From the NCBI GenBank assembly GCA_013696315.1, contig JACCYU010000033.1, positions 1 through 36,906 of the forward strand: a DNA stretch of 36,906 nucleotides, written 5' to 3'. Origin of the DNA: Gammaproteobacteria bacterium. Lineage in GTDB: Bacteria; Pseudomonadota; Gammaproteobacteria; JACCYU01. The position numbers and the translations under genes are program-made. The notes below the pieces were generated by a model. It was not told the origin of the DNA and made no database searches. It saw only the letters and a list, made by a program, of their open reading frames with translations. Below are positions 5,054 through 33,969 of the stretch, piece after piece (position 1 is the stretch's first letter; each line of letters opens with the position of its first letter).

Positions 5054-6283
5054 TTACATCTTGAGACCGATGACCAGATCCATAACATTGGTGCCGGACG
5101 GGCCGGTGCGGATCAGATCGCCGCTCGCCTCCAGAAACGTGCCGCCATCCGCGCGCTTGAGTGCATCTTCGGCCGAAAGACCGCTCTCTTCGCCGCGCGC
5201 TACGGTCTCCCCGTCCACCAGCGCGCCCGCGTCCTCGGTGGGCCCGTCGGTGCCGTCGGTGCCCGCCGCCAGCAGGTACAAGCCTTGTTTACCTTTCAAT
5301 TCGAGTGCCGCCGCCAATGCCAGGTGCTGATTACGTCCACCGCGCCCTGGATTTGATGGCAAGGTGACCGCCGTCTCGCCGCCCCAGATGTGAATGCCGT
5401 CCGCGGCATCGGCAAGCTGGGCAGTCAACGAGCGCGCCGCCGCCGCAGCGTCGTCCTCTAAAAACTCGGGGTAAACCTTCGTGGCGTAGCCCAGACGCCC
5501 GGCTTCGGCGGCGGCAGCGGTCTTGGCGTCTTCGAGCGTAGCGATCACCTCGATGTCGATCGAATCGAAAACGCTCGCATCGGGAGCGGGCACCAGTCGT
5601 ACGTTCTCAAGCAGGCGCGTGACATTCGCCGGTAGATTTTCAAGCGCCGACTCGCCCTCGATACGAACCAGCGGCCCGGAGCCGATCACTGCGGGATCAT
5701 CGCCCGGCACGTCCGAGATCAGCAGACACAGTGTCTCGCGCCTCTTGAGGAAGGTCGCCAAGTGCCCGCCCTTGATCCGCGAAATACCGCGGCGCACCTG
5801 ATTCATTTTGGTGATGCTTAAACCCCCGGCCAGCAGCGCATCGGTCAGCTTGCGCAGGTTCTCGAGATCCATGCCTTCCGCCAACACCTCCGCGAGACTC
5901 GACGCGCCGCCGGAGATCAGAAACAGAAACCGCGCGTCGGCTGGCGCTTGCTCAATGAATTCCAGTAGTTCAGCGCCCGCCGCCAGACTGTCCTCGCCGG
6001 GCACCGGATGGTCTGATTCCAGACAGCGCACGTGCGGGTATTTATCCAGCGCGGGGTCCAGGTGATCGTGCTTGGTGATGACCAGGCCAGCCTTGATCAG
6101 ATCACCGCCCACGGCCAGCGCGCCCAGACTCATGGACGCCGCGGCCTTGCCGATCGCGATCAGCCGATGCTCGACCTGCAGCGGACGCTCTTCGAGACGC
6201 CGTTTTACGGCATCGAAACCCGATACGCGTTTCAGCGCGGCCTGATAAATATGCAGCAAATCGTCGCGGACTGCATTGTTCAT
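5054..6283 (-). CDS. Glycerate 2-kinase (DUF4147/MOFRL family)
   Basis: The 409-residue protein matches the type of glycerate kinase often mis-annotated as hydroxypyruvate reductase (TtuD/GckA). These phosphorylate D-glycerate to 2-phosphoglycerate. Seen in the sequence are an N-terminal domain with IAIGKAAASM near residue 45, LISGGASSL near 135, and KMNQVRRGISRIKGG. The C-terminal MOFRL part has GGRNQHLALAAAL and AAGTDGTDGPTEDAGA. The start at 6283 begins the family-like N-terminus; the frame is open much further upstream, but that part lies inside metZ and is not protein-like. It follows metZ by 29 bases, so it may be cotranscribed, although a metabolic link to methionine synthesis is not obvious. 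Confidence 0.9.
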   Translation of the reverse strand: MNNAVRDDLLHIYQAALKRVSGFDAVKRRLEERPLQVEHRLIAIGKAAASMSLGALAVGGDLIKAGLVITKHDHLDPALDKYPHVRCLESDHPVPGEDSLAAGAELLEFIEQAPADARFLFLISGGASSLAEVLAEGMDLENLRKLTDALLAGGLSITKMNQVRRGISRIKGGHLATFLKRRETLCLLISDVPGDDPAVIGSGPLVRIEGESALENLPANVTRLLENVRLVPAPDASVFDSIDIEVIATLEDAKTAAAAEAGRLGYATKVYPEFLEDDAAAAARSLTAQLADAADGIHIWGGETAVTLPSNPGRGGRNQHLALAAALELKGKQGLYLLAAGTDGTDGPTEDAGALVDGETVARGEESGLSAEDALKRADGGTFLEASGDLIRTGPSGTNVMDLVIGLKM

Positions 6284-6312
6284 TGGAGCACCCGTATTTT
6301 TTTGAATTGCGC

Positions 6313-7506
6313 CTACTGTAGCGCGTCGAAGCCGCGCTGCAAATCCGCCTTGAGATCTTCCACGTTTTCCAGCCCAACGGCTATGCGCAACAGGTTGGGT
6401 TTGATGCCGGCTAGTTCCCGCAGCTCGTCGGTCAGGCGCCCGTGCGTGGTGGTAGCCGGATGCGTAATCGTGGTCTTGGTGTCGCCAAGGTTTGCGGTGA
6501 TCGAAATCAGGCGCGTGCTGTCGATCAGCCGCCAGGCCACCTCGCGCCCGCCATCGATCTCGAAAGACACGATGCCGCCGAATCCGCTCTGCTGCCGCAT
6601 CGCCAGCTCGTGCTGAGGATGCGACGCGAGCCCGGGATAATAAACATGAGTTACGCGCGGCTGTTCCTCCAGCCATTCGGCAAGCGTCTGCGCCGTGGCG
6701 CACATCGCGCGCATGCGCAGGCTCAAGGTTTCCAGCCCCTTGGTGAAATTCCACGCATTGAAGGCGCTTAAAGTGGGCCCGGCGGTGCGCAGAAACGCGA
6801 ACACTTCCTTGCCAACCAGCTCCGCATCGCCGACCACCGCGCCGCCAACGCAGCGCCCCTGCCCGTCCAGATATTTGGTGGCCGAGTGGATCACGATGTC
6901 GGCGCCCAGACTCAGCGGCTTCTGCAAAACCGGCGTGCAGAAGCAATTATCCACCACCAGCAGGCAATCGCGCTCGTGAGTGATGTCGGCCAGCGCCCGG
7001 ATATCCACCAGTTCCACCAGCGGATTCGACGGCGTTTCCAGATACAGCAGACGCGTGTTCGGCTTGATCGCATCGCGCCAGATGTCGAGATCCGTGAGCG
7101 GCACGAAATCCACCTCCACGCCGAACTTCAGAAAATAAGTATTGAACAGGCTGGTGGTGGCGCCAAACACGCCGCGCGACGTGACGACATGATCGCCGCT
7201 TTTCAGCAATGCCATACAGGTCGCGAGGATCGCCGCCATGCCGGAAGAAGTCGCCACGCAGGTCGCGCCGCCTTCCAGCGCGGCGAGGCGGTTCTGGAAA
7301 GTACGCACGGTGGGATTGGTGAAACGCGAATAAATGTTGCCGGCTTCCTCGCCCTTGAAACGCGCCGCCGCCTGCGCCGCATTCTCGAAGATGAAGCTGG
7401 AGGTCTGGAAGATCGGCTCCGAGTGCTCGCCCTCTTGTGTGCGCACCTGCCCGGCACGCACCGCCAGGGTTTCGAATCGATAGTCGTGTGGGTTGTCGAT
7501 ACTCAT
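6313..7506 (-). CDS. metZ: O-succinylhomoserine sulfhydrylase (MetZ)
   Basis: This PLP enzyme makes homocysteine from O-succinylhomoserine and sulfide, the direct sulfhydrylation route to methionine. The 397-residue protein has the Cys/Met-metabolism fold signatures: RFTNPTVRTFQNRLAALEGG, the SSGMAA loop near residue 88, and the PLP lysine in SATKYLDGQG (K211). The start at 7506 (MSIDNPHDYRFETLAVRAG) is the conserved one; 18 further upstream codons run into the leader. The long leader holds a SAM-II riboswitch, so expression should fall when S-adenosylmethionine is plentiful. metZ close to purF is the known Pseudomonas order; here two extra genes separate them. Confidence 0.94.
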   Translation of the reverse strand: MSIDNPHDYRFETLAVRAGQVRTQEGEHSEPIFQTSSFIFENAAQAAARFKGEEAGNIYSRFTNPTVRTFQNRLAALEGGATCVATSSGMAAILATCMALLKSGDHVVTSRGVFGATTSLFNTYFLKFGVEVDFVPLTDLDIWRDAIKPNTRLLYLETPSNPLVELVDIRALADITHERDCLLVVDNCFCTPVLQKPLSLGADIVIHSATKYLDGQGRCVGGAVVGDAELVGKEVFAFLRTAGPTLSAFNAWNFTKGLETLSLRMRAMCATAQTLAEWLEEQPRVTHVYYPGLASHPQHELAMRQQSGFGGIVSFEIDGGREVAWRLIDSTRLISITANLGDTKTTITHPATTTHGRLTDELRELAGIKPNLLRIAVGLENVEDLKADLQRGFDALQ

Positions 7507-7973: not shown

Positions 7974-8594
7974 CTACTCCACAATCATCACCAGATCACC
8001 CTCCCGCATCCAGTCGTACAGCTCGACCACGTCGCGGTTGCGCATGCGGATGCAGCCGATGGAGACGGGCTGACCGATGAGTGCCTCTTCGTGCGTACCG
8101 TGGATGTAGATGTAGCGCGCATAGCTGTCGATGTCTTCGCCGCGATTGATGCCTGGTTCCTGGCCTTCCAGCCATAAGATGCGCGAAGTGATGAAATCAT
8201 CCATGGTCTTGGTCTGGTCGCTGACGATCTGCGCGACCTGGTGGGTGTTCTTGCGTCCCTTGAAGATCGTGCCGAATGGCGCATCGCCGCCGATCTTTTC
8301 TTTGATGCTGTGTACGCCGAGCGGTGTCCTGTGGCTGCCGTCCCGGTTGCCCGCGCCATACTTCGAGGTCGAAACGGGATAAGTCTTGATCAGATTGCCG
8401 TCTCGATAGAGCGAGAGCGTTTGCTTCGCCAGACTGACAACAGCCAGCACCTTGTGCGCGGACGACGGCAAGCGCTGCAACGCTTCGATGCTGTCGGGCA
8501 ATGGGTCGCGCGGCATCAACTCAGCGGGGTATGTGCGGCATGGACGAGCGGTACCGCCGTACAGCCCAGGAATACAACAATGACCGATAACCAC
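7974..8594 (-). CDS. L,D-transpeptidase (YkuD domain), possibly frameshifted at its N-terminus
   Basis: The YkuD domain covers about residues 48-206 and carries the catalytic signature HGTHEEALIGQPVSIGCIRMRN with the nucleophilic cysteine. Such enzymes cross-link peptidoglycan or attach lipoproteins in the periplasm. The reading frame starts with GTG 9 bases after purF; an ATG at 8516 would give a 180-residue protein. Neither start gives a signal peptide. The +1 frame across 8603-8520 encodes an excellent one (LSVIVVFLGCTAVPLVHAAH, preceded by basic residues), reachable from a GTG at 8647 inside the end of purF. A one-base loss around 8520-8545 in the sequence or the genome would explain this. 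Confidence 0.8.
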   Translation of the reverse strand: MVIGHCCIPGLYGGTARPCRTYPAELMPRDPLPDSIEALQRLPSSAHKVLAVVSLAKQTLSLYRDGNLIKTYPVSTSKYGAGNRDGSHRTPLGVHSIKEKIGGDAPFGTIFKGRKNTHQVAQIVSDQTKTMDDFITSRILWLEGQEPGINRGEDIDSYARYIYIHGTHEEALIGQPVSIGCIRMRNRDVVELYDWMREGDLVMIVE

Positions 8595-8603
8595 GGCCTG
8601 AGG

Positions 8604-10109
8604 TTACGCGCTGTGGTGCAGGTCGATATCCACGTATTTTCTGGCACGTTCCTGCTTGGCTCCGTCGTTACGGTCGCGCGCGACCGAATCCAGATATTCG
8701 CGGCTCACGTCGGTGACGTATTCGCCGGTAAAAATCGAACAGTCGAAGTGTTGCAGTCTGGGGTTGCCCTTGCGCACCGACTGCTCCAGATCGTCCAGTT
8801 CCTGATAAATGAGCCGGTCGGCGCCCAGCGCCTCGCGCACCTGCTCCTCGGTACGGCCGTGGGCGATCAGCTCATGGGGGGATGGCATATCGATACCGTA
8901 CACGTTGGGATACCGTATCGGCGGCGCGGCGGACGCGAAGAACACGTTGCGCGCGCCGGCTTCGCGCGCCATCTGCACGATCTCCGTCGAAGTCGTACCG
9001 CGCACGATGGAATCATCCACCAGCAGCACGTTCTTGCGCTTGTATTCGATGTCCAGCGGGTTGAGCTTCTGGCGCACGGAGCGCTCGCGCTGTTCCTGAC
9101 CTGGCATGATGAAGGTGCGGCCGATGTAACGGTTCTTGATAAAGCCCTCGCGATATTTCACGTTTAACTGAAACGCGATTTCCTGCGCGGCGGTGCGGCT
9201 GGTGTCGGGAATCGGGATCACCACGTCGATGCCGTGATCCGGCCATTCGCGCAGGATTTTCTGCCCGAGTTTTTTGCCCATGCGCATGCGCGCCTTGTGC
9301 ACGAACACCTCGTCAATGATCGAGTCGGGCCGCGAAAAGTAAACGTATTCGAAAATGCACGGCGAATAAACGGGATTGTCGGCGCACTGCCGCGTGTGCA
9401 GTTTGCCGTTGTTTTCGATGAACACGGCCTCGCCGGGCGCCAGATCGCGGATCAGTTCGAAGCCCAGCATGTCCAGCGCGACGCTTTCCGACGCGACCAT
9501 GAACTCCGGGCCGTCCGCGGTCTCGCGCCGGCCGTATACCACCGGGCGGATACCGTAAGGGTCGCGAAACGCGAGTACGCCGTAGCCGGTAATCATGGCG
9601 ACCACGGCATACGCGCCCCGACAACGTCGGTGCACGCCGGCGACCGCGGCGAACACGTCCTTGGGACTGATCTTGAGTTTTTCCTGGCGGAGCAGTTCTT
9701 GGGCGAATACGTTCAGCAGGATCTCGCTGTCGGAATCCGTGTTGATATGGCGCCGGTCTTCCTTGAACAGTCCGCGCTTGAGCTGCGCCGCGTTGGAGAG
9801 ATTGCCGTTGTGACCCAGCGCGATGCCGTAGGGGGAATTGACGTAAAACGGCTGCGCCTCGGCGGAAGCGGATGTGCCGGCGGTGGGATAACGTACCTGA
9901 CCGATACCGATGTTGCCCGGCAGGCGATCCATATGCCGGGACTGAAAAACGTCGCGCACGAGCCCGTTATCCTTGCGCAAAAACAGCCGCCCCTGGTGAT
10001 AGGTCACGATCCCGGCGGCGTCCTGCCCGCGATGCTGCATTACGGTAAGCCCATCGTATAGGGAATGATTGACGGGCTGGCGTCCGACGATGCCGATGAT
10101 TCCGCACAC
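8604..10109 (-). CDS. purF: Amidophosphoribosyltransferase (PurF)
   Basis: PurF catalyses the first step of purine synthesis: PRPP plus glutamine to phosphoribosylamine, in the cytoplasm. The 501-residue protein begins MCGIIGIVG, so Cys2 becomes the N-terminal nucleophile of the glutamine amidotransferase domain without a propeptide. The C-terminal phosphoribosyltransferase domain has the PRPP loop [14 protein letters not shown] around residues 360-375, and [12 protein letters not shown] after it. It follows cvpA by 31 bases, the classical cvpA-purF operon. Confidence 0.97.
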
Positions 10110-10140
10110 GGATGCGTTAAATTCCTGTCATGGGTTCACG

Positions 10141-10677
10141 TCAGACCGTTGCATCCCACGAAAAGTGCCGGGCGATGTCGGCCGGCAGCAGTTCGACGAT
10201 GCGAATGGCGGTCCGCTCGAACGGCGGCAGCAGATGAGCTTCATGCCACCACTCCGACAGCGGCGCTCTGGTAAGCCCCGCGGCCAGCACCATTATGACG
10301 ATAACCGCGGCGCCGCGCACGATTCCAAACGCGAGCCCCAGCAAGCGATCGGCACCCTTGACCACCCGCGCGCTCGTGATCTTAGCAAGCAGCATGTTGA
10401 CGACGGCGCCCGCAATCAGGGTCGCCACCACGAGCAGGACAAACGCGATGCCAATCCGAATGTTGCGGATCTCGAAGTCAGTGCCGCCCAATGAAAACGC
10501 TGCATGCTCCAGCGATTGCGGCAGCATGGCTGCGACCTCGCCTGAGAACAGCACGGCCAGCCAGATGGCGGCCACCCAGGTGATAACGGAAACGGCTTCC
10601 TTGACAAACCCGCGGGTGAGCCCGATCAGCCCCGAGATGACGATGACCAGAACGATGACGGCATCCAGCCACGACAT
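10141..10677 (-). CDS. cvpA: CvpA family membrane protein
   Basis: The 178-residue protein has about four hydrophobic segments (near 5-25, 30-50, 65-90 and 100-125), starting MSWLDAVIVLVIVISGLIGLTRGFVKE, the typical CvpA N-terminus. In E. coli cvpA is needed for colicin V production and affects envelope stress tolerance; the molecular role is not settled. It lies directly before purF, its usual partner. The start ATG at 10677 is the only sensible one. Confidence 0.92.
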   Translation of the reverse strand: MSWLDAVIVLVIVISGLIGLTRGFVKEAVSVITWVAAIWLAVLFSGEVAAMLPQSLEHAAFSLGGTDFEIRNIRIGIAFVLLVVATLIAGAVVNMLLAKITSARVVKGADRLLGLAFGIVRGAAVIVIMVLAAGLTRAPLSEWWHEAHLLPPFERTAIRIVELLPADIARHFSWDATV

Positions 10678-10782
10678 GTCAGTTACGGCCCTCCCGTCAG
10701 CGGTTTAGCGCGAAAATGCTTTCGAATGTCTGCCGCGACGCGGATCGCCGCATGGCTCATCTGACCGCTAGCGACCGTGCTG

Positions 10783-11568
10783 TCAGCCGCCTCCACGTAA
10801 AACGATCGGCGCGGCGTCACGCGGATGGCTGACCACGATGCCCCGCAAATCCTTTTGACTCCGAAGTTTGCCCTGTAGCGCCTCGGCGTGCGCGCGATCG
10901 TCTTCCGGACCGACCTTGACACGGAAAACCTGTTCGCCGCCGGTTTTAACCTGTTCCTCGAATGCCGCGAAACCCGAAGCGCGTAGCTGGTTCCGCAGAG
11001 TCCGCGCGTTTTCCTGCTCGCTGAAACTGCCCACTTGCACGGCCCAGGCCGGGGTCCGCGCGGCCGCCTGCTCGCCCGCGGACGGGGACTCAGCGGCGGC
11101 GGGTTCCGATACCGCCGGCGGCGGAGACCGGCGCGCGGATTCAGGGTCTGACGCCGGAACTTCAGCGGCCGGATCGACGGCCGCGGTCTCGGCGCCAGCC
11201 GGCGCAATCGCGGCCGTACTCGCGGCAGGATTTGCGACCGCCGGAGGATTCATCGAAGCGTCCTTTGGCTTGCTGGCAGAATTCGCCTGCGCGGAACCTG
11301 CCGCGGGTAGTCGCGCCTCGGAGGGTCTGGCGGGTGGCTGTTTGTCAGGTGCTGCCGGTCGGTCTGACTCAGGTCTGATACCGGCCTGCTTTTCCTTCGC
11401 CGCATCCGGCGGCGGCGCGAAGCTGTAATTGGGTTCGGGTGGAACATCCATGTCCAGCGCGACCGGTTTCTCGCGTGACGAACCATCGAAAATCATGGGT
11501 AGGAAAACCACAGCGACGGCCACCAGCACGGCGCCGCCGATTAGGCGTTGTTTGAGTGTGATATCCAC
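10783..11568 (-). CDS. dedD: SPOR-domain protein, DedD-like
   Basis: The 261-residue protein has a short cytoplasmic N-terminus, one membrane segment (about residues 10-26) and a long Ala/Pro-rich linker (about 30-170). A C-terminal SPOR domain (about 173-250) begins WAVQVGSFSEQENARTLRNQL. SPOR domains bind denuded glycan strands at the septum, and DedD helps cell constriction. Its place between folC and cvpA is that of dedD in E. coli and its homologue in Pseudomonas. An overlapping frame of 174 codons is a composition shadow of the linker. Confidence 0.88.
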   Translation of the reverse strand: MDITLKQRLIGGAVLVAVAVVFLPMIFDGSSREKPVALDMDVPPEPNYSFAPPPDAAKEKQAGIRPESDRPAAPDKQPPARPSEARLPAAGSAQANSASKPKDASMNPPAVANPAASTAAIAPAGAETAAVDPAAEVPASDPESARRSPPPAVSEPAAAESPSAGEQAAARTPAWAVQVGSFSEQENARTLRNQLRASGFAAFEEQVKTGGEQVFRVKVGPEDDRAHAEALQGKLRSQKDLRGIVVSHPRDAAPIVLRGGG

Positions 11569-24953: not shown

Positions 24954-25239
24954 AACACCGCTGCTGAAGGCGCACCTGCGCGCGCCACCGCCACGCCCAT
25001 TAGTGGTTACCCAGATCCCTCGCCGCAAACCTACCGCTGGTCGGTCACGCATTGCCACTCATCGGTCGTGCCAAGATTAATGTTTCACGCGTTCCCGCTC
25101 GGCGCTATACCTACCGTGGAGCCCAATGACCGATACGTGACAATTATCAGTAGACGGCTTTCATTACCGTACCTGTCGCCAATCTAGAAGTACGACAAGC
25201 AAAACCAGGGGCTTAAATCGTTATGTGGGGAAAAAATTC
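24954..25239. other. Divergent gap between leuC and the di-heme oxidoreductase gene
   Basis: With the leuC leader this gap is about 345 bases. I see no coding frame, RNA gene or repeat. No convincing -35/-10 pair for the plus-strand oxidoreductase gene was found. The only clear plus-strand signal is the GGGGAA ribosome site just before 25240. Confidence 0.5.
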
Positions 25240-26840
25240 ATGAAAGTTATACGAGAAATGCCATGCCGCATTGCGTCCGGCTTTTTGTTCATCGCGTTCG
25301 CCTGCTCCACGCAGGCCCAGCTTACCGATATCACGCAGACACCCAATCCGATTAACGCTGGCATCGCGAAGTCGCTGCGTCAGCAGGTCGACGCCGGCCA
25401 AGGGGACGCGTTTACGCCGGGATCGTCAATCTACCTCATTAAGCGCGATCCCGCGCGCTCGGTGCGGCGCGGGCGTCAGCTCTTCCAGCGCACCTTCACC
25501 AAAAATCAGGGGTTCGGTCCGCGCGTGAACGACGACTCAATCGGCGATATCACGGTCATGCGTAACCTGGGCGCGGGATTATCGAATAGCTGCGCGGCCT
25601 GTCATGGACGCCCGCGAGGTTCGGCCGGGTTCGGTGGCGATGTGGTAACGCGCCCCGACAGTCGCGATGCCCCTCACCTGTTCGGCGCCGGGCTTGTAGA
25701 AATGCTGGGCGACGAGATCACCCATGATCTGCGCAGTATCCGGGGCCAGGCAGTGCAACGTGCCAAAACTTCAGCACGGTCCGTCACGCAGCGACTGCAA
25801 AGTAAAGGCATCGACTACGGCCAGATCACGGTCTGTCCGGATGGCGATGTAGATACCTCGCAAGTGCAAGGCGTAAACCCGGATCTTCGCGTTCGCCCCT
25901 TCTTCGCCCATGGTGCATCGTTCGCACTTCGCGAGTTCATCGTCGGCGCCTTCAAGGACGAAATGGGGCTGGAATCTCCCGATACAATCCTTTGTCGGGC
26001 CACCGATCCGGCCAATGCGGTGGCGGTGACAAGCCCCTCTGGCATGGTTTTCGACCCCGCGCTTGACAGCATGGTGCGCCCGCCCGTATGCGATCGCAGC
26101 GAAGATGGAGATTTCGACCTCGCGGTCAATGAGATCGATCCGGCGGTGGTCGACCATATGGAATTCTACTGTTGAACTACTTCAAGCCCGGCACGGGTGA
26201 AGTCACACAGCAGTCTCAACAGGGCCTAAAACTGATGGAGCGGATCGGATGCACGAGCTGTCATGTCCAGGACCTCCGCATCGAGCGCGACCGGCGCATA
26301 GCCGACGTAGAAACACGTTTCGATCCGGCAAGGGGAATCTTCAATCGCCTGTATGCAACGGCCACGACCTTGTTCAAGATCGTAGAGGACGGCGATCAGT
26401 ACCCGCAACTGCTGCCCAAGGGAAAGCCATTTCTCGTAGAGAATATCTTCGCTGACTTCAAGCGACACGATCTGGGGCCGGCCTTTCACGAGCGGGAATA
26501 TGACGGGTCGTTAGTCACGGAATTCGTGACCGAGCCGCTGTGGGGCGTGGGCAGCACCCCATCATATGGTCATGACGGGCGCAGCATCAACCTGGAGGAA
26601 GTCATTATGCGTCATGGCGGCGAAGCGCAGGAAACTCGCGACGCCTTCGCGTCCTTGAACTGGCTCAACCAGCGCAAGATCCTCGTATTCCTCGAGACTT
26701 TGGTCATCTTCCCGCCAGACGATACAGCGTCCAACCTGAATCCAGGCGTACCGGGCACCGTCAGTCCGCAGAATCCTTCAGAGCACGGCAGCATCAACCT
26801 GGGCGCGCTTTTTCAGATCCCATCGGAAGGTCGAGAGTAA
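25240..26840 (+). pseudogene. Di-heme oxidoreductase (DHOR/DUF1111), split by a frameshift
   Basis: The two reading frames are halves of one exported c-type cytochrome of the DHOR ('thiol oxidoreductase', DUF1111) family. The first half (25240-26175) has a signal peptide ending TQAQ and a heme site CAACH (C118, C121, H122). The second (from about 26172 to 26840) has a heme site CTSCH and the family's WGVGSTPSYGHDGRS. The first frame ends TAC TGT TGA. One extra base after 26169 would give EFY-LLNYFKPG, the sequence expected in this family, and join the halves. So one base is missing, by mutation or sequencing error. The redox partner is unknown. The gene converges on the DUF192 remnant. Confidence 0.85.
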
Positions 26841-26846
26841 GCTCGG

Positions 26847-27343
26847 TCACAGGGCGCGTCGGGCAAGCGCCTTCCAATCGAGACGCAACTTGTGGCCGGG
26901 GGCAACGCCGAGTTCGACGAGCCGGCCCCCGGCTATTTCCAGCACAAAAAGCACCGGAAAGCGACTCGAATAATGCGGCAACCGCGCTTCGTATTCGGCG
27001 TCGCTTTCTCCCGCTCTGCGTGGCGATTCCGGTGGCATGGTGTACGTAACAAGCACTTGGCCGTCCGCATCCAGAAACGCTACGTCGATAGGCACCCAAC
27101 TGTCGCGCATGAACGCCGCGACGATCTCTGGTTTCGGCAACACCATCAGCATTCCTTGACGCGGATCGATAAACCTGCGCCCGCCTAGACCCCTGCCGCA
27201 CTCGCGGAATCGAGCGCGAGATCAAGCGTGAGCCTTTCCTTTGCGATCGCAAACTGCACCGTCTCGCGCGATTCCGTCTCGACCGCATGCTCTCCCGCCG
27301 CCACCAAGCAGAAAATCACCATGCATTGAACCATGGGTCTCAT
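26847..27343 (-). pseudogene. DUF192 family protein, frameshifted
   Basis: The downstream frame (to 26847) carries the DUF192 core: RFIDPRQGMLMVLPKPEIVAAFM, VPIDVAFLDADG, FVLEIAGG and a final GVAPGHKLRL. The start of the domain (VQFAIAKERLTLDLALDSASAAG) lies in another frame, which stops at 27185 (GTC TAG). The two join naturally at GGTCTAGGC with a change of reading frame, giving the usual 'A..GL..R' transition. A possible signal peptide (MRPMVQCMVIFCLVAAGEHA) begins at 27343. DUF192 proteins are small exported proteins of unsettled function. It lies 106 bases after the truncated hemoglobin gene and may be the last gene of that run. Confidence 0.7.
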
Positions 27344-27449
27344 GCAACGCCCGCCAGGCTTGTCTGGCATCGCGCTCTCAGGAACATGGATCGACGGCAA
27401 AAACATAGTTACGGATTTGCTAGGCGTGTAAGAACTCGCCGCAAGCCGT

Positions 27450-27893
27450 TTATCGATAGATAATTTCTCGGCGTAATGGAGCAAGCCTAGCGAGCAAACG
27501 ATTCTGCGTTGCCTCAGGAAGGTTGAGGCGCGCCATCGCCTCCTGTAGGTTCTCTACTCCGGCGTTGAACTGAGCCTCAGTGATGTTCAAGCCACCGTGC
27601 ACGACGTCCATGGGATCGCCCGTGTATTCGCACGGTCCGCCGCTCAGCACGCAGATGTACTCGACCAGTTTTTCCCGAAGATGCGGTATATCACTGTGGG
27701 CGAAGACCGGCCCCACGCGACTGTCGTTGGCGCATACTTCGAGATAGCCATCCACCAGCCCCGCTATGCCGCCTTGTTTGACCAGGCCCTGGAAGAGAGC
27801 GTCATCAGCCGCTTGCGCCGATGAGTAACCTGTCAGCCCAACTGCCAACGATAGGACTAATACATTTAGTAGCGCAGGTTTTGACCGTAGCAT
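27450..27893 (-). CDS. Exported group I truncated hemoglobin
   Basis: The 147-residue protein has a signal peptide (basic MLRSK, hydrophobic core, cleavage after AQA at about residue 28) and a 2-on-2 globin domain. The pattern fits TrHb1: LFQGLVKQGGIAGLVDGYLEV with a tyrosine at the B10-like place (Y50), LREKLVEYICVLSGGPCEYTG, and the proximal histidine H99 in MDVVHGGLNIT. Such globins bind O2 or NO; some detoxify NO. Most known members are cytoplasmic, so the signal peptide is notable. Cysteines at about 54, 81 and 88 could form a disulfide. It starts 21 bases after the DUF3034 gene on the same strand. Confidence 0.9.
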   Translation of the reverse strand: MLRSKPALLNVLVLSLAVGLTGYSSAQAADDALFQGLVKQGGIAGLVDGYLEVCANDSRVGPVFAHSDIPHLREKLVEYICVLSGGPCEYTGDPMDVVHGGLNITEAQFNAGVENLQEAMARLNLPEATQNRLLARLAPLRREIIYR

Positions 27894-27914
27894 GTCATCT
27901 CACTCCAGTAAGGT

Positions 27915-28790
27915 TCAGTAGCTCGCTTCCACGGACAAATACAAGCCAGTCTGGCGGCCAAGGCCGGCGATAGTCCCGAGGTCGGCATACGCCGCCACGA
28001 AAGAAAGATGCTTGTTGGGAAAGTAGCCGATGAACACATCCCACCAGTCTTCTTCGCGCGCGAAAGCGAGGTTGTCGGGCTTCTGCCGATACTCCACGCC
28101 GAGCGCCGTGAAGCGGTCGAGTAATACGGCGACGCTACCTTCGAATACCAGGTCACGCCCACCTTTGCCGCCACCAAACCCCAGTAGTCCAAGCTGATTC
28201 GCCTCGGTAGAGCGCACTGTCGTATTCAACAACAGGTTGCGGCCGGCAAGGGCGCCGAGAAACAGCTTGCTGGCGGCGAGGTAAACGTCAACGCCGCTGT
28301 CGTCTTCCGCGCCGACGGCGTTCGGAATGTCGAAATCCAGATTATGTTTGTATTGCGCGCCGAGCGAGATCTGCGGCCAGGGCGTGTAAATCAAATCGCC
28401 CAGAAGCCGCAACTTGGCGCCAAAGATATTCTGCCGCAGCACCGCGTCGGGTTGCTCCAGCATGACGCCTAACGTGCCGAGATCGAATTCCTGACGCGCG
28501 AACGAGAGCTCGACACGGTTGAATAACGTAATCCCCCCACCCAGCACATCAAGAGTGTAATCGCCGGTGTCGACGCGCGAAATGGCGAACGCGCTGCCGT
28601 ATTCGTCGCGCGTACCGTAACCCGCGAGCACCGCCCACGGCACCAGCCCCCCGCCCGCGGAGCCCTCGATCTGCAACGCACCGCCGGTGGCCAGCAGACG
28701 GCCATCCGCCTGCGCGGCCGGCAAACAAGCCAGCGCAATCGATAAATGAAACAAGTAACCGGCAACGCAAAGCATCCGCCGACATATCAT
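27915..28790 (-). CDS. DUF3034 family exported protein
   Basis: The 291-residue protein has a signal peptide (ending about AAQA, residue 27). The rest is an alternating pattern rich in Gly, Leu, Tyr and Phe, ending in aromatic SVEASY, as in outer-membrane beta-barrels. It matches what I recall as DUF3034, a family without an assigned function: GGALQIEGSAGGGLVPWAVLAGY near the N-terminus and ISLGAQYKHNLDFDIP in the middle. The ATG at 28790 has GGAGG 6 bases upstream. It lies 17 bases after the GGDEF-EAL gene and 21 before the truncated hemoglobin gene, so the three are surely cotranscribed. Inference: an outer-membrane porin-like partner of the cluster. Confidence 0.8.
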   Translation of the reverse strand: MICRRMLCVAGYLFHLSIALACLPAAQADGRLLATGGALQIEGSAGGGLVPWAVLAGYGTRDEYGSAFAISRVDTGDYTLDVLGGGITLFNRVELSFARQEFDLGTLGVMLEQPDAVLRQNIFGAKLRLLGDLIYTPWPQISLGAQYKHNLDFDIPNAVGAEDDSGVDVYLAASKLFLGALAGRNLLLNTTVRSTEANQLGLLGFGGGKGGRDLVFEGSVAVLLDRFTALGVEYRQKPDNLAFAREEDWWDVFIGYFPNKHLSFVAAYADLGTIAGLGRQTGLYLSVEASY

Positions 28791-28807
28791 TTTTGCCTCC
28801 CCAATAT

Positions 28808-31210
28808 TCACAGGACCTTTATGCGCGAAATCTCTGTGGCGGGCGGCGCACTGGCAGTCCGTAGTTGTTCGTATTGCTTGAACCACGCGATAAACTCAAT
28901 CAGCGGTAGCGCTTTGCTGATGTGGAACCCCTGCGCCATGTCACAGCTATAACTCCGCAACAACTTCAGGGATTCCTCGCTTTCCACGCCCTCGGCCACC
29001 ACGCGCAGCCCCATGTTGTGGCCCAGATCGATGGTGGATTTCACGATCACCGCGTCGCTGGTGTTGTTCATCAGGTCCAGCACGAAGGACTTATCGATCT
29101 TCAGTTCATGTACCGGCAGGCGTTTCAGGTGCGAAAGCGAGGAATAGCCGGTGCCGAAGTCGTCGATCGACAGCCGCACGCCACATTTATCCAGGCTTTC
29201 CAGCATGAGGATAATTTTGCCCGAGTCGCGCATGACCGAGCTTTCGGTAACTTCCAGGGTCAGGTGTCCGGGTTCGAGACCGTGTTCTCGCAACCGCCCC
29301 TCCACGATCGACGGCAGATCCACGCTGGTCAGGTCCGTGACGGAGATATTGATCGCCACGCCCACCTCGATGCCCTCGCGACGCCACACGCTGCAATCGC
29401 GCACCACTGTGTCCAGCAGCCAATGGGTCAGTGCCCGGATATGTCCAGACTGCTCGGCCAGCGGGATAAACTCGTCCGGCGGTACCATACCGTAGCGCGG
29501 ATGTCGCCAGCGCATTAGCGCCTCCACTTGCGTGACCGCACGCGTGCCGAGCTCGATCTTGGGCTGGTAATGCACCACCAGCTCGTTATTGGGCGCCGCG
29601 CGGCGCAGATCGTTGACCAGCGCCAGTCGGTGCAAGTGCTCTTCCTCGCGGCCCGCCTTATAAGCGGTAGGCGATTGTCGCGTCCGTTTGCCTTCGTACA
29701 TGGCGATGTCCGCGCGGCGAAGCAAGGCTTCCGCGTCCTCGCCATGATCGGGATACACGGACACACCGATACTGACTTCCGTCACCACTTCAACCGTGCC
29801 TAGTTTCACGGGCTCGGCCATGACCGCTTTCAGTTTCGCTCCCACGAGCAGGGCCGCTTCCAGATTCTGGCCTTCCACCAGAGTGAGAAACTCATCGCCG
29901 CCCAGTCGCGCCACCGTGTCGCTGGCGCGCACCGTGGCGCGCAGGCGCCGACCCAGCTCGATCAGCAACTGATCGCCGGTGTGATGCCCGAGGAGTGTGT
30001 CGTTGATCTCCTTGAAGCGATCCACATCTATCATCAACACACCCACCGTATTGCCATTGCGGCGCGCGTGCTCGATAGCCGAGCGCAGCCGGTCATGGGC
30101 CAGCGCGCGATTCGGCAAACCTGTAAGTGTGTCGTGAAACGCCTGATGCGCGATCCTGTCCTCGCGTTCGGCAATCGCGCTCTGCATCGTGTTCAACGAC
30201 GTTGCGAGGGCCCCCAGCTCATCCGAGCGCTGTATCTCGACGGTGTGCCGATAATCACCCTGCGCGATTCGCTGCGTGGCGGTGACCAGCCGATTCAGCG
30301 GTCGTGCTACCCCATGCGCCAAAATAAAAGCCGCAACCAGCGCAACACCCAGCGCCAGCAGCGAAATCAGGACCAGTCGATTGCCAAGGGCGCGAAACTG
30401 CCCACCGTGCTCAAGCGGAATTTGCAGCACCGCGCCGACCTCGTGCCGGCCGCCAGCTTCCAAGGGTATCTTCAACGTCAGATATTCCGCGTCTCGCAGA
30501 TGCATGACGTAAGGTTCGCTGACCTCGGCGTTCGTGCCCAGGGTGCTCGCCAGCGCATCGCGCAGCGGAGGCACCAAAGTGGAAGGTAATGGCATAACAG
30601 CATTGCGGCCGCGCTTGCCGTAACCGACAAAGGATATCTCCAGCCCGGTGAGCGCCTTGAGTATCGCGACGAGCGTCTCGTCCATCACGAAGCCCATGAC
30701 CGCCCACGCAACACGCTCCGGGGCCTCCACCGGCACCGCCATTAGCTGATGCGGCGCGCCGCCGAACACCACCGTCGCCCGCGCGAATGGTGTGTCCTCG
30801 GCTTCTCGTATCAGCTCGGACAGCACTGGGTAAATCGGGCTGCCGGGTAACTCCACGATGGTCGAGGCCACGACCTCGCCCTCCAGCGAGAGCACCAGCG
30901 CCTCGCTCGCGCCGATGCGCTTGTTGTAATTCTCCAGCGCCGAGCGGATGGTCGGTACGTCACCGGTCGCCACCGCCTCCTTGAATCCGAAGTCGCTGGC
31001 CGCCTGCCGCACGGCATAGAGCAACTGCTCGTCGCGCTCGCGCATTGATTGGGCGAATACTCGCGCGCCGGTCTCCAGGCTGACTTCCGCATGCTCGATC
31101 ATGCTGGCGCGGATTGCGGAGTACACGACCACGAAGATCGGCGCCAGCACGCAAGCGATCACGCACGCCAGCGCCGCGAGAATTCGCGTTCGAAAACTCA
31201 AGGCCCTCAT
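28808..31210 (-). CDS. Membrane GGDEF-EAL c-di-GMP enzyme with periplasmic sensor and HAMP
   Basis: The 800-residue protein makes and/or breaks c-di-GMP. In order it has a membrane helix (about 10-32), a periplasmic Cache-like sensor (about 35-275), a second helix (about 279-300) and a HAMP domain (about 300-355). A GGDEF domain follows with intact GGDEF at 437-441 and an inhibitory I-site RASD at 428-431. The EAL domain has EAL at 563-565, then IDDFGTGYSSL, LKIDKSF and VVAEGVES. Both catalytic signatures are intact, so either activity is possible. Its ATG overlaps the stop of the cupredoxin gene by 4 bases (ATGA). The sensor probably reads a periplasmic state set by its exported neighbours (inference). 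Confidence 0.94.
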   Translation of the reverse strand: MRALSFRTRILAALACVIACVLAPIFVVVYSAIRASMIEHAEVSLETGARVFAQSMRERDEQLLYAVRQAASDFGFKEAVATGDVPTIRSALENYNKRIGASEALVLSLEGEVVASTIVELPGSPIYPVLSELIREAEDTPFARATVVFGGAPHQLMAVPVEAPERVAWAVMGFVMDETLVAILKALTGLEISFVGYGKRGRNAVMPLPSTLVPPLRDALASTLGTNAEVSEPYVMHLRDAEYLTLKIPLEAGGRHEVGAVLQIPLEHGGQFRALGNRLVLISLLALGVALVAAFILAHGVARPLNRLVTATQRIAQGDYRHTVEIQRSDELGALATSLNTMQSAIAEREDRIAHQAFHDTLTGLPNRALAHDRLRSAIEHARRNGNTVGVLMIDVDRFKEINDTLLGHHTGDQLLIELGRRLRATVRASDTVARLGGDEFLTLVEGQNLEAALLVGAKLKAVMAEPVKLGTVEVVTEVSIGVSVYPDHGEDAEALLRRADIAMYEGKRTRQSPTAYKAGREEEHLHRLALVNDLRRAAPNNELVVHYQPKIELGTRAVTQVEALMRWRHPRYGMVPPDEFIPLAEQSGHIRALTHWLLDTVVRDCSVWRREGIEVGVAINISVTDLTSVDLPSIVEGRLREHGLEPGHLTLEVTESSVMRDSGKIILMLESLDKCGVRLSIDDFGTGYSSLSHLKRLPVHELKIDKSFVLDLMNNTSDAVIVKSTIDLGHNMGLRVVAEGVESEESLKLLRSYSCDMAQGFHISKALPLIEFIAWFKQYEQLRTASAPPATEISRIKVL

Positions 31211-31866
31211 TGTCTCCAGCGCTTGAACTTATCTTCCACGGAAGGGACGGATGACGTGGGTTGAGAGTTTTGGGGCGCTGAGCGCATCTCCAGCGAGTAG
31301 ACCCGCGCCAGCGCGGAGACATCGACTGGCGCCGTCTCCATCACTTGCGGCGTGCGCGACCTGGCCTGTGGATGCCATAACGTAACTTCGTAACGGCCGG
31401 CCGGCAATCCCTCGATATCCACCTTGCCTTGCGCATCAGCCTTGCCGAAATAAGGCGTGTCGGCGACGTAGATATATCCCAGCATCCAGTCGTGGATATT
31501 GCAGCCCAGCACCACCACACCCGGCTGGTCGAATATGATTGGCGCGGAGGGCGTGTCCTTGTACAGCGGCAGTTTGAATCGCTTGGGCGCGGAGAATGAG
31601 TAGACGCTGTGGCGGATGTCGTCGCTGTTGGGAAATTTTACCAGAGTACCAAGCCGCACCGGCAGCACGTAGGGGTCGAAGCGCCGGTTGCGCTGATCCA
31701 TGCTGGCGCGGGGCGTATCCGCCACCGCGGGCGGGGTGAAGTCCAGGGCATGCAGCGACAGCACGGCGTCCGCCACGGGCGCGCCTTCAGCATCGGTGAT
31801 CCGCGCCTCGAAGGCACCAGCGGCCAGACATGGCATCAAGATCAACGGCTGCGCCAGCCAGACCAA
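31207..31866 (-). CDS. Cupredoxin-like exported protein ('methylamine utilization protein' type)
   Basis: The protein has a cupredoxin core with a full set of type-1 copper ligands: H86 in IRHSVYSFS, and C122, H125 and M128 in GCNIHDWMLG. A carboxypeptidase-regulatory-like region precedes (ARITDAEGAPVADAVLSLHAL). A short beta-sandwich tail follows (GKVDIEGLPAGRYEVTLWHP). Relatives are often labelled methylamine utilization proteins, but no mau genes are present here. The only standard start is TTG at 31866, which lacks a ribosome site. The frame is open upstream to GGAGG at 31910-31906, and translating from about 31899 would give a better signal peptide with a basic residue (VINRITTIAGTLVWLAQP...). 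It is the first gene of the GGDEF-EAL/DUF3034/hemoglobin run. Confidence 0.82.
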   Translation of the reverse strand: MVWLAQPLILMPCLAAGAFEARITDAEGAPVADAVLSLHALDFTPPAVADTPRASMDQRNRRFDPYVLPVRLGTLVKFPNSDDIRHSVYSFSAPKRFKLPLYKDTPSAPIIFDQPGVVVLGCNIHDWMLGYIYVADTPYFGKADAQGKVDIEGLPAGRYEVTLWHPQARSRTPQVMETAPVDVSALARVYSLEMRSAPQNSQPTSSVPSVEDKFKRWRQ

Positions 31867-32112
31867 CGTCCCGGCAATAGTGGTGATACGGTTGATGACC
31901 GGCGTCCTCCGCTGCTCAGGCGGACGAATTTAACCAACCGGCGGCGGGAGCGTCTGACGGTAATGGACGAAGGACTCGATATGACCGACCAGCGGTCAGA
32001 GGATTTTCAGTACGCGACGCAGCCCGCCCGTAACGCAGCCGCGCGAATGTTCGCAGAGGGCGCGGGTTTTACGGAGTCGTTATGGAGAGTTTCTGGATGA
32101 CTCGGCGACGAA

Positions 32113-33969
32113 TCAGTTATCGCTGTAGCAGCCCGCTACCGCGAGCGCGTTGCCGGCCTTGATGGTCTGATATTTTTCCCAGAACGCTGCGTCTATAGCC
32201 ATCAGCGACTCCTCTGTCGCAGAATCGCGGTAACGTGACATCTGACCGGGGCCGCCGTTGTACATGGCATAGGCCGCCCGCGCCAGGTTCTGGATGTCGC
32301 CGCTCACTATGTCTTCTTTTTTCGCGATCGCATAATCGATCAGATAGTGGCGCAGGATGTCGGCGCCCGCGCGGGCGTTATAACCGATGTCCCACTGCAG
32401 ACCGTTGAGGTCGTAAAAGCCGCGCCAGACGTGCTGGTTAATCTGCATGACGCCGATCGACCCCGTGCCCGAGCTGATCGGGACGTATTTATCGCCGCGC
32501 TCCACGAACTGGCGCCAGCAGCTTTCCTGCCAGGCGGTGGCCAGCACCAGCGGTTCGAACAATGGCCGGTACCCGGACGCTATTTCGCCCTCGCTCAACA
32601 CATCGCGCGCCACCAGGGCCAGCAACTCCTTAACTATCGGCAGGTATTCGTCTAGGTCGTCAAGGCCAGGCAGCCAGCCGGTGAGGCGCTCGACCAGTGC
32701 ATCGTATCGGCTGTCCGCGGCGTACGCCGACGGGATGAGCGACAGCCCGCTTAAGTCCAGTCCGATCGGACGGCGGCGGGGCGGCGGCAGCGGCGCGCCG
32801 AAACCCAACGCGCGGCGCAGTTCCGGATCGACTTGAATGCTGTAGTCCAGCGCCTCTATGGGAAGATCGGGGGCCGCGATGCGCGCCATGCGCCGCAGCG
32901 CATCCGCCGATAAGGTAAAGCCGAGATTCGGCGCGAGCCGATCCAGGATCTGCAACGCGTCGCCCGCGGCAATGAAACTCAGCCAGCGTAGCGCGGAGTC
33001 AGGTGGCAGCCCGCTGCTTTGCGCGCGCAACGCCGGAGCCAGGCGCGACCAGGTAGATACAAACAGGCGCCGCACCGGGTCAACACCGTCCGAGGGCGAC
33101 GCCGCGAGGATATCGAGCACATCCTGCCGCGCCTGCAGCAATACCGCGAGCAGTTCCGCGCGCAGTTCCAATGACGCATTCGCGCTCGCGCGCTTGATCA
33201 GCGTGGTCACGAAAGAGTCCCAATGGTGGGAAGCCTGCCGCCATCGCCGCAGTTCCTCGCCGAACAGGGCCGGTTCCGCGCGATCAGGCGCCGGCGTGAC
33301 CGCCAGGCCGTCCGGCGCCTCTATCCTGACGCCCAACGTGAGTGCGCCATTACCCGCCTCGACATGTGACAGTGCGATTGAATCCAGCAGTTCGCGCACC
33401 AGCGCCTCGTCATGCGGAAATACGACCGGCAGCAACGACTCCAGCTCCGCGAGCGCCGGGGTTAAATCCAGTTGCAGGCGTTCCATGCGTGGATGCACAT
33501 GGCTTTTTACCTGGTCCCACAAGGTGCCGGCGACACTGGCGCTGCTACCGTCCGCGGCGTAAATGTTGGACTCGACGACCCGAAACTCGACCGTGCCGGC
33601 CGCGGCGTCGAGCACCGGCTCTTCGAAAACCTCCACGAAGCCGGTCCAGTCGAGTATCGTCAGGCAGCGTGCCCCTAGCACCGTACCCACCCGCGCCTCG
33701 CCCGCGCTGATCACCTGCACGACGCCGGCGCGAACATCGACTTGCGGATCGGAAAGCGTAAGGTAATTACAACCGCTGCCGTCGTCCCACGCGCGCGCGA
33801 CGCCGTCGGCATCCGTGTACACCTGACTAACGAGAAACTGACGGATCAGTTCCTCGTTAAAGCGCACCGGGATGTCGGCCTCACGCGCCTGGGCGACGGT
33901 CGTCACCCAGCACAAGACGATCACAATGAGTAGGTTTTCGGCAACACGCAGGAAAGGCGGATTAATCAT
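32113..33969 (-). CDS. Large exported lytic transglycosylase (SLT domain)
   Basis: The 618-residue protein has a signal peptide (cleavage after VAQA, about residue 28) and a long N-terminal region of about 400 residues that I do not recognise. A C-terminal SLT-type lysozyme fold (about 465-600) follows. The catalytic glutamate is E482 in ATAWQESCWRQF, followed by GSIGVMQIN (503-511) and AAYAMYNGGPGQ. It would cut peptidoglycan glycan strands to 1,6-anhydro ends in the periplasm. Family members are usually shorter; the large N-terminal part may position or regulate it. It is on the same strand as the cupredoxin run but separated by about 250 bases, so cotranscription is uncertain. Confidence 0.9.
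   Translation of the reverse strand: MINPPFLRVAENLLIVIVLCWVTTVAQAREADIPVRFNEELIRQFLVSQVYTDADGVARAWDDGSGCNYLTLSDPQVDVRAGVVQVISAGEARVGTVLGARCLTILDWTGFVEVFEEPVLDAAAGTVEFRVVESNIYAADGSSASVAGTLWDQVKSHVHPRMERLQLDLTPALAELESLLPVVFPHDEALVRELLDSIALSHVEAGNGALTLGVRIEAPDGLAVTPAPDRAEPALFGEELRRWRQASHHWDSFVTTLIKRASANASLELRAELLAVLLQARQDVLDILAASPSDGVDPVRRLFVSTWSRLAPALRAQSSGLPPDSALRWLSFIAAGDALQILDRLAPNLGFTLSADALRRMARIAAPDLPIEALDYSIQVDPELRRALGFGAPLPPPRRRPIGLDLSGLSLIPSAYAADSRYDALVERLTGWLPGLDDLDEYLPIVKELLALVARDVLSEGEIASGYRPLFEPLVLATAWQESCWRQFVERGDKYVPISSGTGSIGVMQINQHVWRGFYDLNGLQWDIGYNARAGADILRHYLIDYAIAKKEDIVSGDIQNLARAAYAMYNGGPGQMSRYRDSATEESLMAIDAAFWEKYQTIKAGNALAVAGCYSDN

Follow-up and report, generated by a model that had tools for sequence, protein, structure and literature searches.

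A conserved four-gene module suggests a cupredoxin as a possible signal-bearing partner of membrane receptors with exchanged outputs

Why should a predicted copper protein, an exported haemoglobin and a protein of the family DUF3034 be encoded together with a membrane enzyme of cyclic di-GMP (c-di-GMP) turnover? The question is raised by a stretch of 36,906 nucleotides from a gammaproteobacterium (assembly GCA_013696315.1, contig JACCYU010000033.1; the whole stretch is called here the window), in which four genes follow one another on the minus strand:

31207-31866 from a TTG codon, or 31207-31896 from a likelier ATC, minus strand: cupredoxin gene (CUP)
28808-31210, minus strand: GGDEF-EAL receptor gene, 800 amino acids (transmembrane helix at ~10-32, periplasmic dCache_3 domain, transmembrane helix at ~278-300, HAMP 297-346, GGDEF 357-512, EAL 533-766)
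27915-28790, minus strand: DUF3034 gene, 291 amino acids
27450-27893, minus strand: truncated haemoglobin (TrHb) gene, 147 amino acids

A preliminary description, made from the letters of the window, had proposed that the exported proteins present or process a redox signal that the receptor turns into c-di-GMP. The compact layout on which it was built is confirmed by the coordinates: the cupredoxin and receptor genes are spaced by -4 (an ATGA overlap at 31207-31210), the DUF3034 gene begins 17 bases past the EAL stop and the TrHb gene begins 21 bases past DUF3034. The Pfam domains likewise agree with its reading of the last three genes as a GGDEF-EAL protein with a periplasmic sensor, a DUF3034 protein and a TrHb.

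Judged by gene neighbourhoods, the four genes are a genuine conserved module. All four stand together at 94 of 116 DUF3034 loci (93 found by script, plus L040, a relative of the same genus in which several frames make up the receptor gene), and the globin gene adjoins DUF3034 at 110 of them. Since these named loci are skewed to Pseudomonas and Xanthomonas, genomes drawn evenly from the phylum (299) and from the class (274) are a better measure. DUF3034 was present in 25 and 14 of these genomes, respectively, and the even draw yielded the full set at 21 of 35 loci, from 14 families and two classes, arranged colinearly or as divergent pairs. Annotated records of plasmids from Caballeronia and Novosphingobium contain the same set. 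Co-occurrence, which the preliminary description had proposed to examine, revealed conserved neighbours and a shared phylogenetic profile: DUF3034 and the cupredoxin are found together in 24 of the 25 DUF3034 genomes (p 6e-26, uncorrected for genome relatedness). Three genomes (G473, G485 and G521) encode the DUF3034-globin pair on one contig and the cupredoxin-receptor pair on another, a result showing that the link exceeds operon inheritance. Chance, or plain inheritance of a neighbourhood devoid of functional link, would be compatible with the loci at which one or two of the four genes are missing; however, complete sets survive rearrangement (divergent or reordered), co-presence extends across contigs and the profile test contradicts this explanation, the probability of which we consider negligible. 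No recurrent neighbours beyond the module genes were found among the loci examined. A complete module was also detected in a metagenome-assembled genome labelled Acidobacteria (L095), with a DUF3034 protein 58% identical to that of the window; this may be a misassigned bin or a horizontal transfer.

The product of the first gene is exported and is a predicted type 1 copper protein, as indicated by the order of its ligands and by the Greek-key beta barrel of its model. The ligands named in the preliminary description (H86, C122, H125 and M128, numbered from the TTG) were verified, all four being invariant in an alignment of 25 sequences. The amicyanin-like loop C-x2-H-x2-M is retained in 135 of 135 core cupredoxins, 132 of which have the first His motif and the other three a spacing variant. 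No Pfam family matched the protein over threshold, and its model (predicted local distance difference test, pLDDT, of 90) gave amicyanin and copper nitrite reductase as best fold matches, with which a profile search agrees weakly. The protein thus shares fold and ligand loop with amicyanin and other type 1 copper proteins, but differs by an extra C-terminal domain and by a receptor as constant neighbour. A role in methylamine utilisation was considered and rejected, being a matter of name only: no methylamine dehydrogenase or mau genes recur nearby, and the NCBI label 'methylamine utilization protein', given to the cupredoxin in the Caballeronia record, is misleading. The extra beta domain, which is carboxypeptidase-regulatory-like and follows the cupredoxin domain, could also mean that the protein is a structural or ligand-binding adaptor in which copper is incidental or structural. 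This is very improbable, since the copper ligands are all invariant whereas the second domain varies among relatives. In the even draw from the phylum, the cupredoxin (100 bits or more) was found in 35 of 299 genomes. The window's own genome carries a second, distant homologue (L250, G000 C245; 80 bits), followed by proteins of ~401 and ~154 residues; L203 and Sinorhizobium pSymA (L266) have a comparable layout that includes a metallophosphoesterase.

Regarding the receptor, Pfam detected dCache_3 (over the cut-off), HAMP, GGDEF and EAL domains, and the position of dCache_3 between two transmembrane helices, followed by HAMP, places it among the dCache_3-HAMP receptors. No solved structure was matched when the sensor region was searched by sequence. 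In the window protein the GGDEF motif is intact and accompanied by an RxxD site, and the EAL catalytic residues are intact as well. Among 87 aligned receptors, the EAL metal and catalytic residues (E, N, E, DD, K, E, Q) are kept in all, whereas a canonical GGDEF motif is kept in 19, the window's included, and is degenerate in most. The usual output would therefore be c-di-GMP hydrolysis (or binding), so that the signal, which the preliminary description had turned into c-di-GMP, would usually act on its removal. At one locus (L055) an unlinked EAL protein lies outside the sensor family.

The cupredoxin and its receptor also occur as a pair on their own. When loci were collected with a cupredoxin profile and their neighbours read, pairs lacking DUF3034 or the globin proved common, and in fifteen cases the partner had an output other than EAL: a Ser/Thr kinase in six (L043, L123, L197, L244, L246 and L251, the first two in DUF3034 loci), a class III cyclase in six (L186, L188, L233, L236, L239 and L240) and a histidine kinase in three (L201, L202 and L237). 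A profile built on the periplasmic region of EAL-type receptors, without HAMP, matched all fifteen, at 1e-44 or better for the cyclases and L237 and between 1e-6 and 1e-16 for the rest, making the sensor a single family whose outputs are exchanged. In the cupredoxin tree, many forks of which are weak, EAL partners are intermixed with cyclase partners, and the kinase partners cluster together. The sensor was detected in 32 of the 299 phylum genomes, 31 of which also encode the cupredoxin (p about 1e-36, uncorrected for genome relatedness), and 29 of 36 sensor matches lie beside a cupredoxin gene (a hand count from two tables). A further such pair, of the EAL type, is carried on a plasmid of Comamonas aquatica (L264, 3931-7885) with a DUF4394 gene just upstream.

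The barrel comes from more than one family. The DUF3034 protein (Pfam DUF3034, 2e-107) has a signal peptide and a C-terminal aromatic residue, mostly F or Y among its relatives. It is a predicted outer-membrane beta barrel: the model has 12 strands (pLDDT 78) and its best fold matches are barrels of that membrane. It has its fold class in common with FapF, the COG4313 channel, OmpG and NanC, which are other families (~10-13% identity, TM-scores near 0.5), and a conserved GGG segment is peculiar to DUF3034. Many of the other cupredoxin-receptor pairs are accompanied by an exported barrel-like protein of one of three further families: one of ~410 residues (8 loci) and one of ~300 residues (5 loci), both of which accompany EAL and cyclase types alike, and a Porin_5-like one (2 loci, kinase type). 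The ~410- and ~300-residue families, found at L186, L188, L192, L194-L196, L199, L233, L235, L236, L238, L241 and L242, match no Pfam family over threshold and are probably outer-membrane barrels.

Given that the cupredoxin and the sensor are constant, that the barrel family varies and that the output can be exchanged, the cupredoxin is most simply read as the signal-bearing subunit. We propose, with a probability of about 0.5, a trans-envelope relay from barrel to cupredoxin to receptor, of which the operon represents the DUF3034 version; in it, the cupredoxin would inform the dCache_3-HAMP protein of the redox or copper state of the periplasm. Both the sensing and the contact between cupredoxin and sensor are inferred. 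A small molecule would enter through the barrel or act in the periplasm, the barrel admitting or exporting whatever sets the state of the cupredoxin. The copper site, oxidised or reduced, loaded or empty, would alter the contact of the cupredoxin with the sensor domain, and HAMP would pass this change to the EAL domain, altering c-di-GMP. In the DUF3034 versions the globin could add a haem step by supplying or removing a haem ligand or electron (nitric oxide (NO), O2 or peroxide). The preliminary description's idea of a receptor informed by exported redox proteins gains strength from the presence of the same cupredoxin beside receptors with other outputs, the signals it had listed (O2, NO, copper or a radical) being candidates. 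Its exported set also needs to be narrowed: the cupredoxin, together with some outer-membrane barrel, would be the dedicated partner of the receptor, while the globin is confined to the DUF3034 versions. Several observations weigh against the proposed relay. At L047 and L067, DUF3034, globin and cupredoxin genes occur with no receptor gene nearby; in four genomes (G285, G387, G403 and G419) the sensor is encoded apart from the cupredoxin gene, and in G380 it was matched where the cupredoxin was not. It should also be noted that DUF3034 is assigned as a barrel from its model, and the other barrels from weak Pfam matches and features of signal peptide and C-terminus.

As the copper site is better conserved than any other feature of the only constant partner, and a barrel gene is adjacent, the system could instead sense copper availability without electron transfer: the barrel would admit copper or a copper complex, the cupredoxin would report itself loaded or empty and the receptor would adjust lifestyle. 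We think this doubtful, as type 1 sites are generally known to hold copper tightly and to suit electron transfer, genes for copper transporters or chaperones do not recur among the neighbours and the globin fits it poorly.

The globin itself (Pfam Bac_globin, 4e-13) is exported and belongs to group 1. Its positions, assigned through alignment to a solved Tetrahymena globin, comprise the proximal His99, hydrophobic residues at B10, E7 and E11 (L51, L72 and L76), Lys75 at E10, and Cys81 and Cys88. The proximal His and hydrophobic E7 and E11 residues are present in 110 of 110 globins, B10 is L, I, V or M in 109, and each of the two cysteines is kept in 108. By its residues and its best solved matches the protein fits TrHbN-2, exemplified by Shewanella benthica HbN (PMC11904497), with which it shares the proximal His and the hydrophobic B10, E7 and E11. 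By contrast, its signal peptide, the usual lipobox and the near-invariant Cys81/Cys88 pair distinguish the type found here from TrHbN-2, and that paper makes no mention of export, lipoprotein or operon. As a Cys occupies the lipobox position in 97 of the 110, most DUF3034-linked globins are predicted lipoproteins; the window protein has a Tyr there and is probably soluble. An NO dioxygenase role is unlikely, the distal Tyr and Gln being missing in all 110. Lys is found at E10 in 59 of the 110 and could give a hexacoordinate haem, a ligation of the kind favouring electron transfer (PMC11904497).

This possible ligand would suit an operon for redox chemistry or detoxification, in which NO, peroxide or a radical is removed by cupredoxin and globin acting as partners in electron transfer, and the receptor, sensing something else through its own dCache domain, is just co-regulated. 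So would the deeper cupredoxin relatives at L201, L204 and L249, which adjoin genes for MauG/CcP-like di-haem peroxidases and weakly suggest electron transfer, with a hint of peroxide. Such an operon is nevertheless unlikely: cupredoxin-receptor pairs lacking the globin are common, the sensor family is nearly confined to genomes with the cupredoxin, and the pair is kept while outputs are exchanged.

A broader proposal, which we make tentatively and hold slightly short of even odds, is that of a trans-envelope receptor class in which a dedicated type 1 copper protein carries the signal for dCache_3-HAMP receptors whose outputs are interchangeable (c-di-GMP hydrolysis, Ser/Thr phosphorylation, cyclic nucleotide synthesis or histidine phosphorelay), an outer-membrane barrel is the gate and, in the DUF3034 branch, an exported haemoglobin provides a further input based on haem. 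Several known systems resemble parts of it. In the NspS-MbaA system of Vibrio cholerae, a periplasmic polyamine substrate-binding protein sets the activity of an adjoining membrane GGDEF-EAL receptor. The gene arrangement is alike, but the module is not a member, having a cupredoxin in place of the substrate-binding protein, a barrel and a globin, and an exchangeable output. YfiBNR/TpbB of Pseudomonas, composed of an outer-membrane lipoprotein, a periplasmic protein and a HAMP c-di-GMP enzyme, is likewise a relay across the envelope, and redox plays a part in it. The module does not belong to it either: family searches reveal no homology between the proteins of the two, and the YfiBNR enzyme makes c-di-GMP whereas the conserved activity here would be its hydrolysis. 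DosP/DosC and the partners of H-NOX or NosP are haem-regulated c-di-GMP enzymes, for which, as here, a haem protein is encoded with the enzyme; their haem domains are cytoplasmic, whereas the globin of the module is an exported protein from a different fold subgroup.

No description of such a system was found in the literature searched, from which most subscription literature was absent. No paper was found there joining truncated hemoglobin, methylamine utilization protein and GGDEF, or methylamine utilization protein and c-di-GMP; those joining cupredoxin, c-di-GMP and sensor do not, by title and abstract, describe one, and DUF3034 is barely named (single mentions). Cupredoxins are known as electron carriers; if the proposal is true, one dedicated to a receptor would represent a new principle of sensing. 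It would give a testable input to many receptors whose annotation goes no further than EAL protein, Ser/Thr kinase or adenylate cyclase, assign a function to DUF3034 and provide a context for exported truncated haemoglobins. The exchanged outputs make the question directly testable, as a change in the cupredoxin could be read through several of them.

The start of the cupredoxin gene and the genes beyond the module involve these further features:

31906-31910, minus strand: GGAGG Shine-Dalgarno-like site, nine bases ahead of the probable ATC start (31894-31896)
26847-27152, with a second piece at 27185-27484: DUF192 gene, seemingly truncated by a frameshift
25225-26840: di-haem oxidoreductase gene, which the window shows as two overlapping frames

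The cupredoxin probably starts at the ATC at 31896 rather than at the TTG at 31866 used in the preliminary description: in L040 the ATC and its GGAGG context are kept whereas the TTG is replaced by CTG. The ATC start would yield a normal signal peptide. In a scan of 26700-32300 no sigma-70-like promoter was seen and terminators were near chance level, so that the scan speaks neither for nor against separate promoters. The DUF192 and di-haem genes are present as previously described, but both look damaged in the window: L040 has an intact DUF192 frame of 175 codons (6931-7458) and a single open frame for the di-haem gene (5257-6924), the split of which in the window may reflect a frameshift or a sequencing error. 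Together with a transglycosylase gene they were rejected as parts of the module, which they adjoin only within the same genus. In L040 itself (7986-11563) the cupredoxin and globin genes are intact, but those for DUF3034 and the receptor are each fragmented into several frames, which may be due to decay or to assembly errors.

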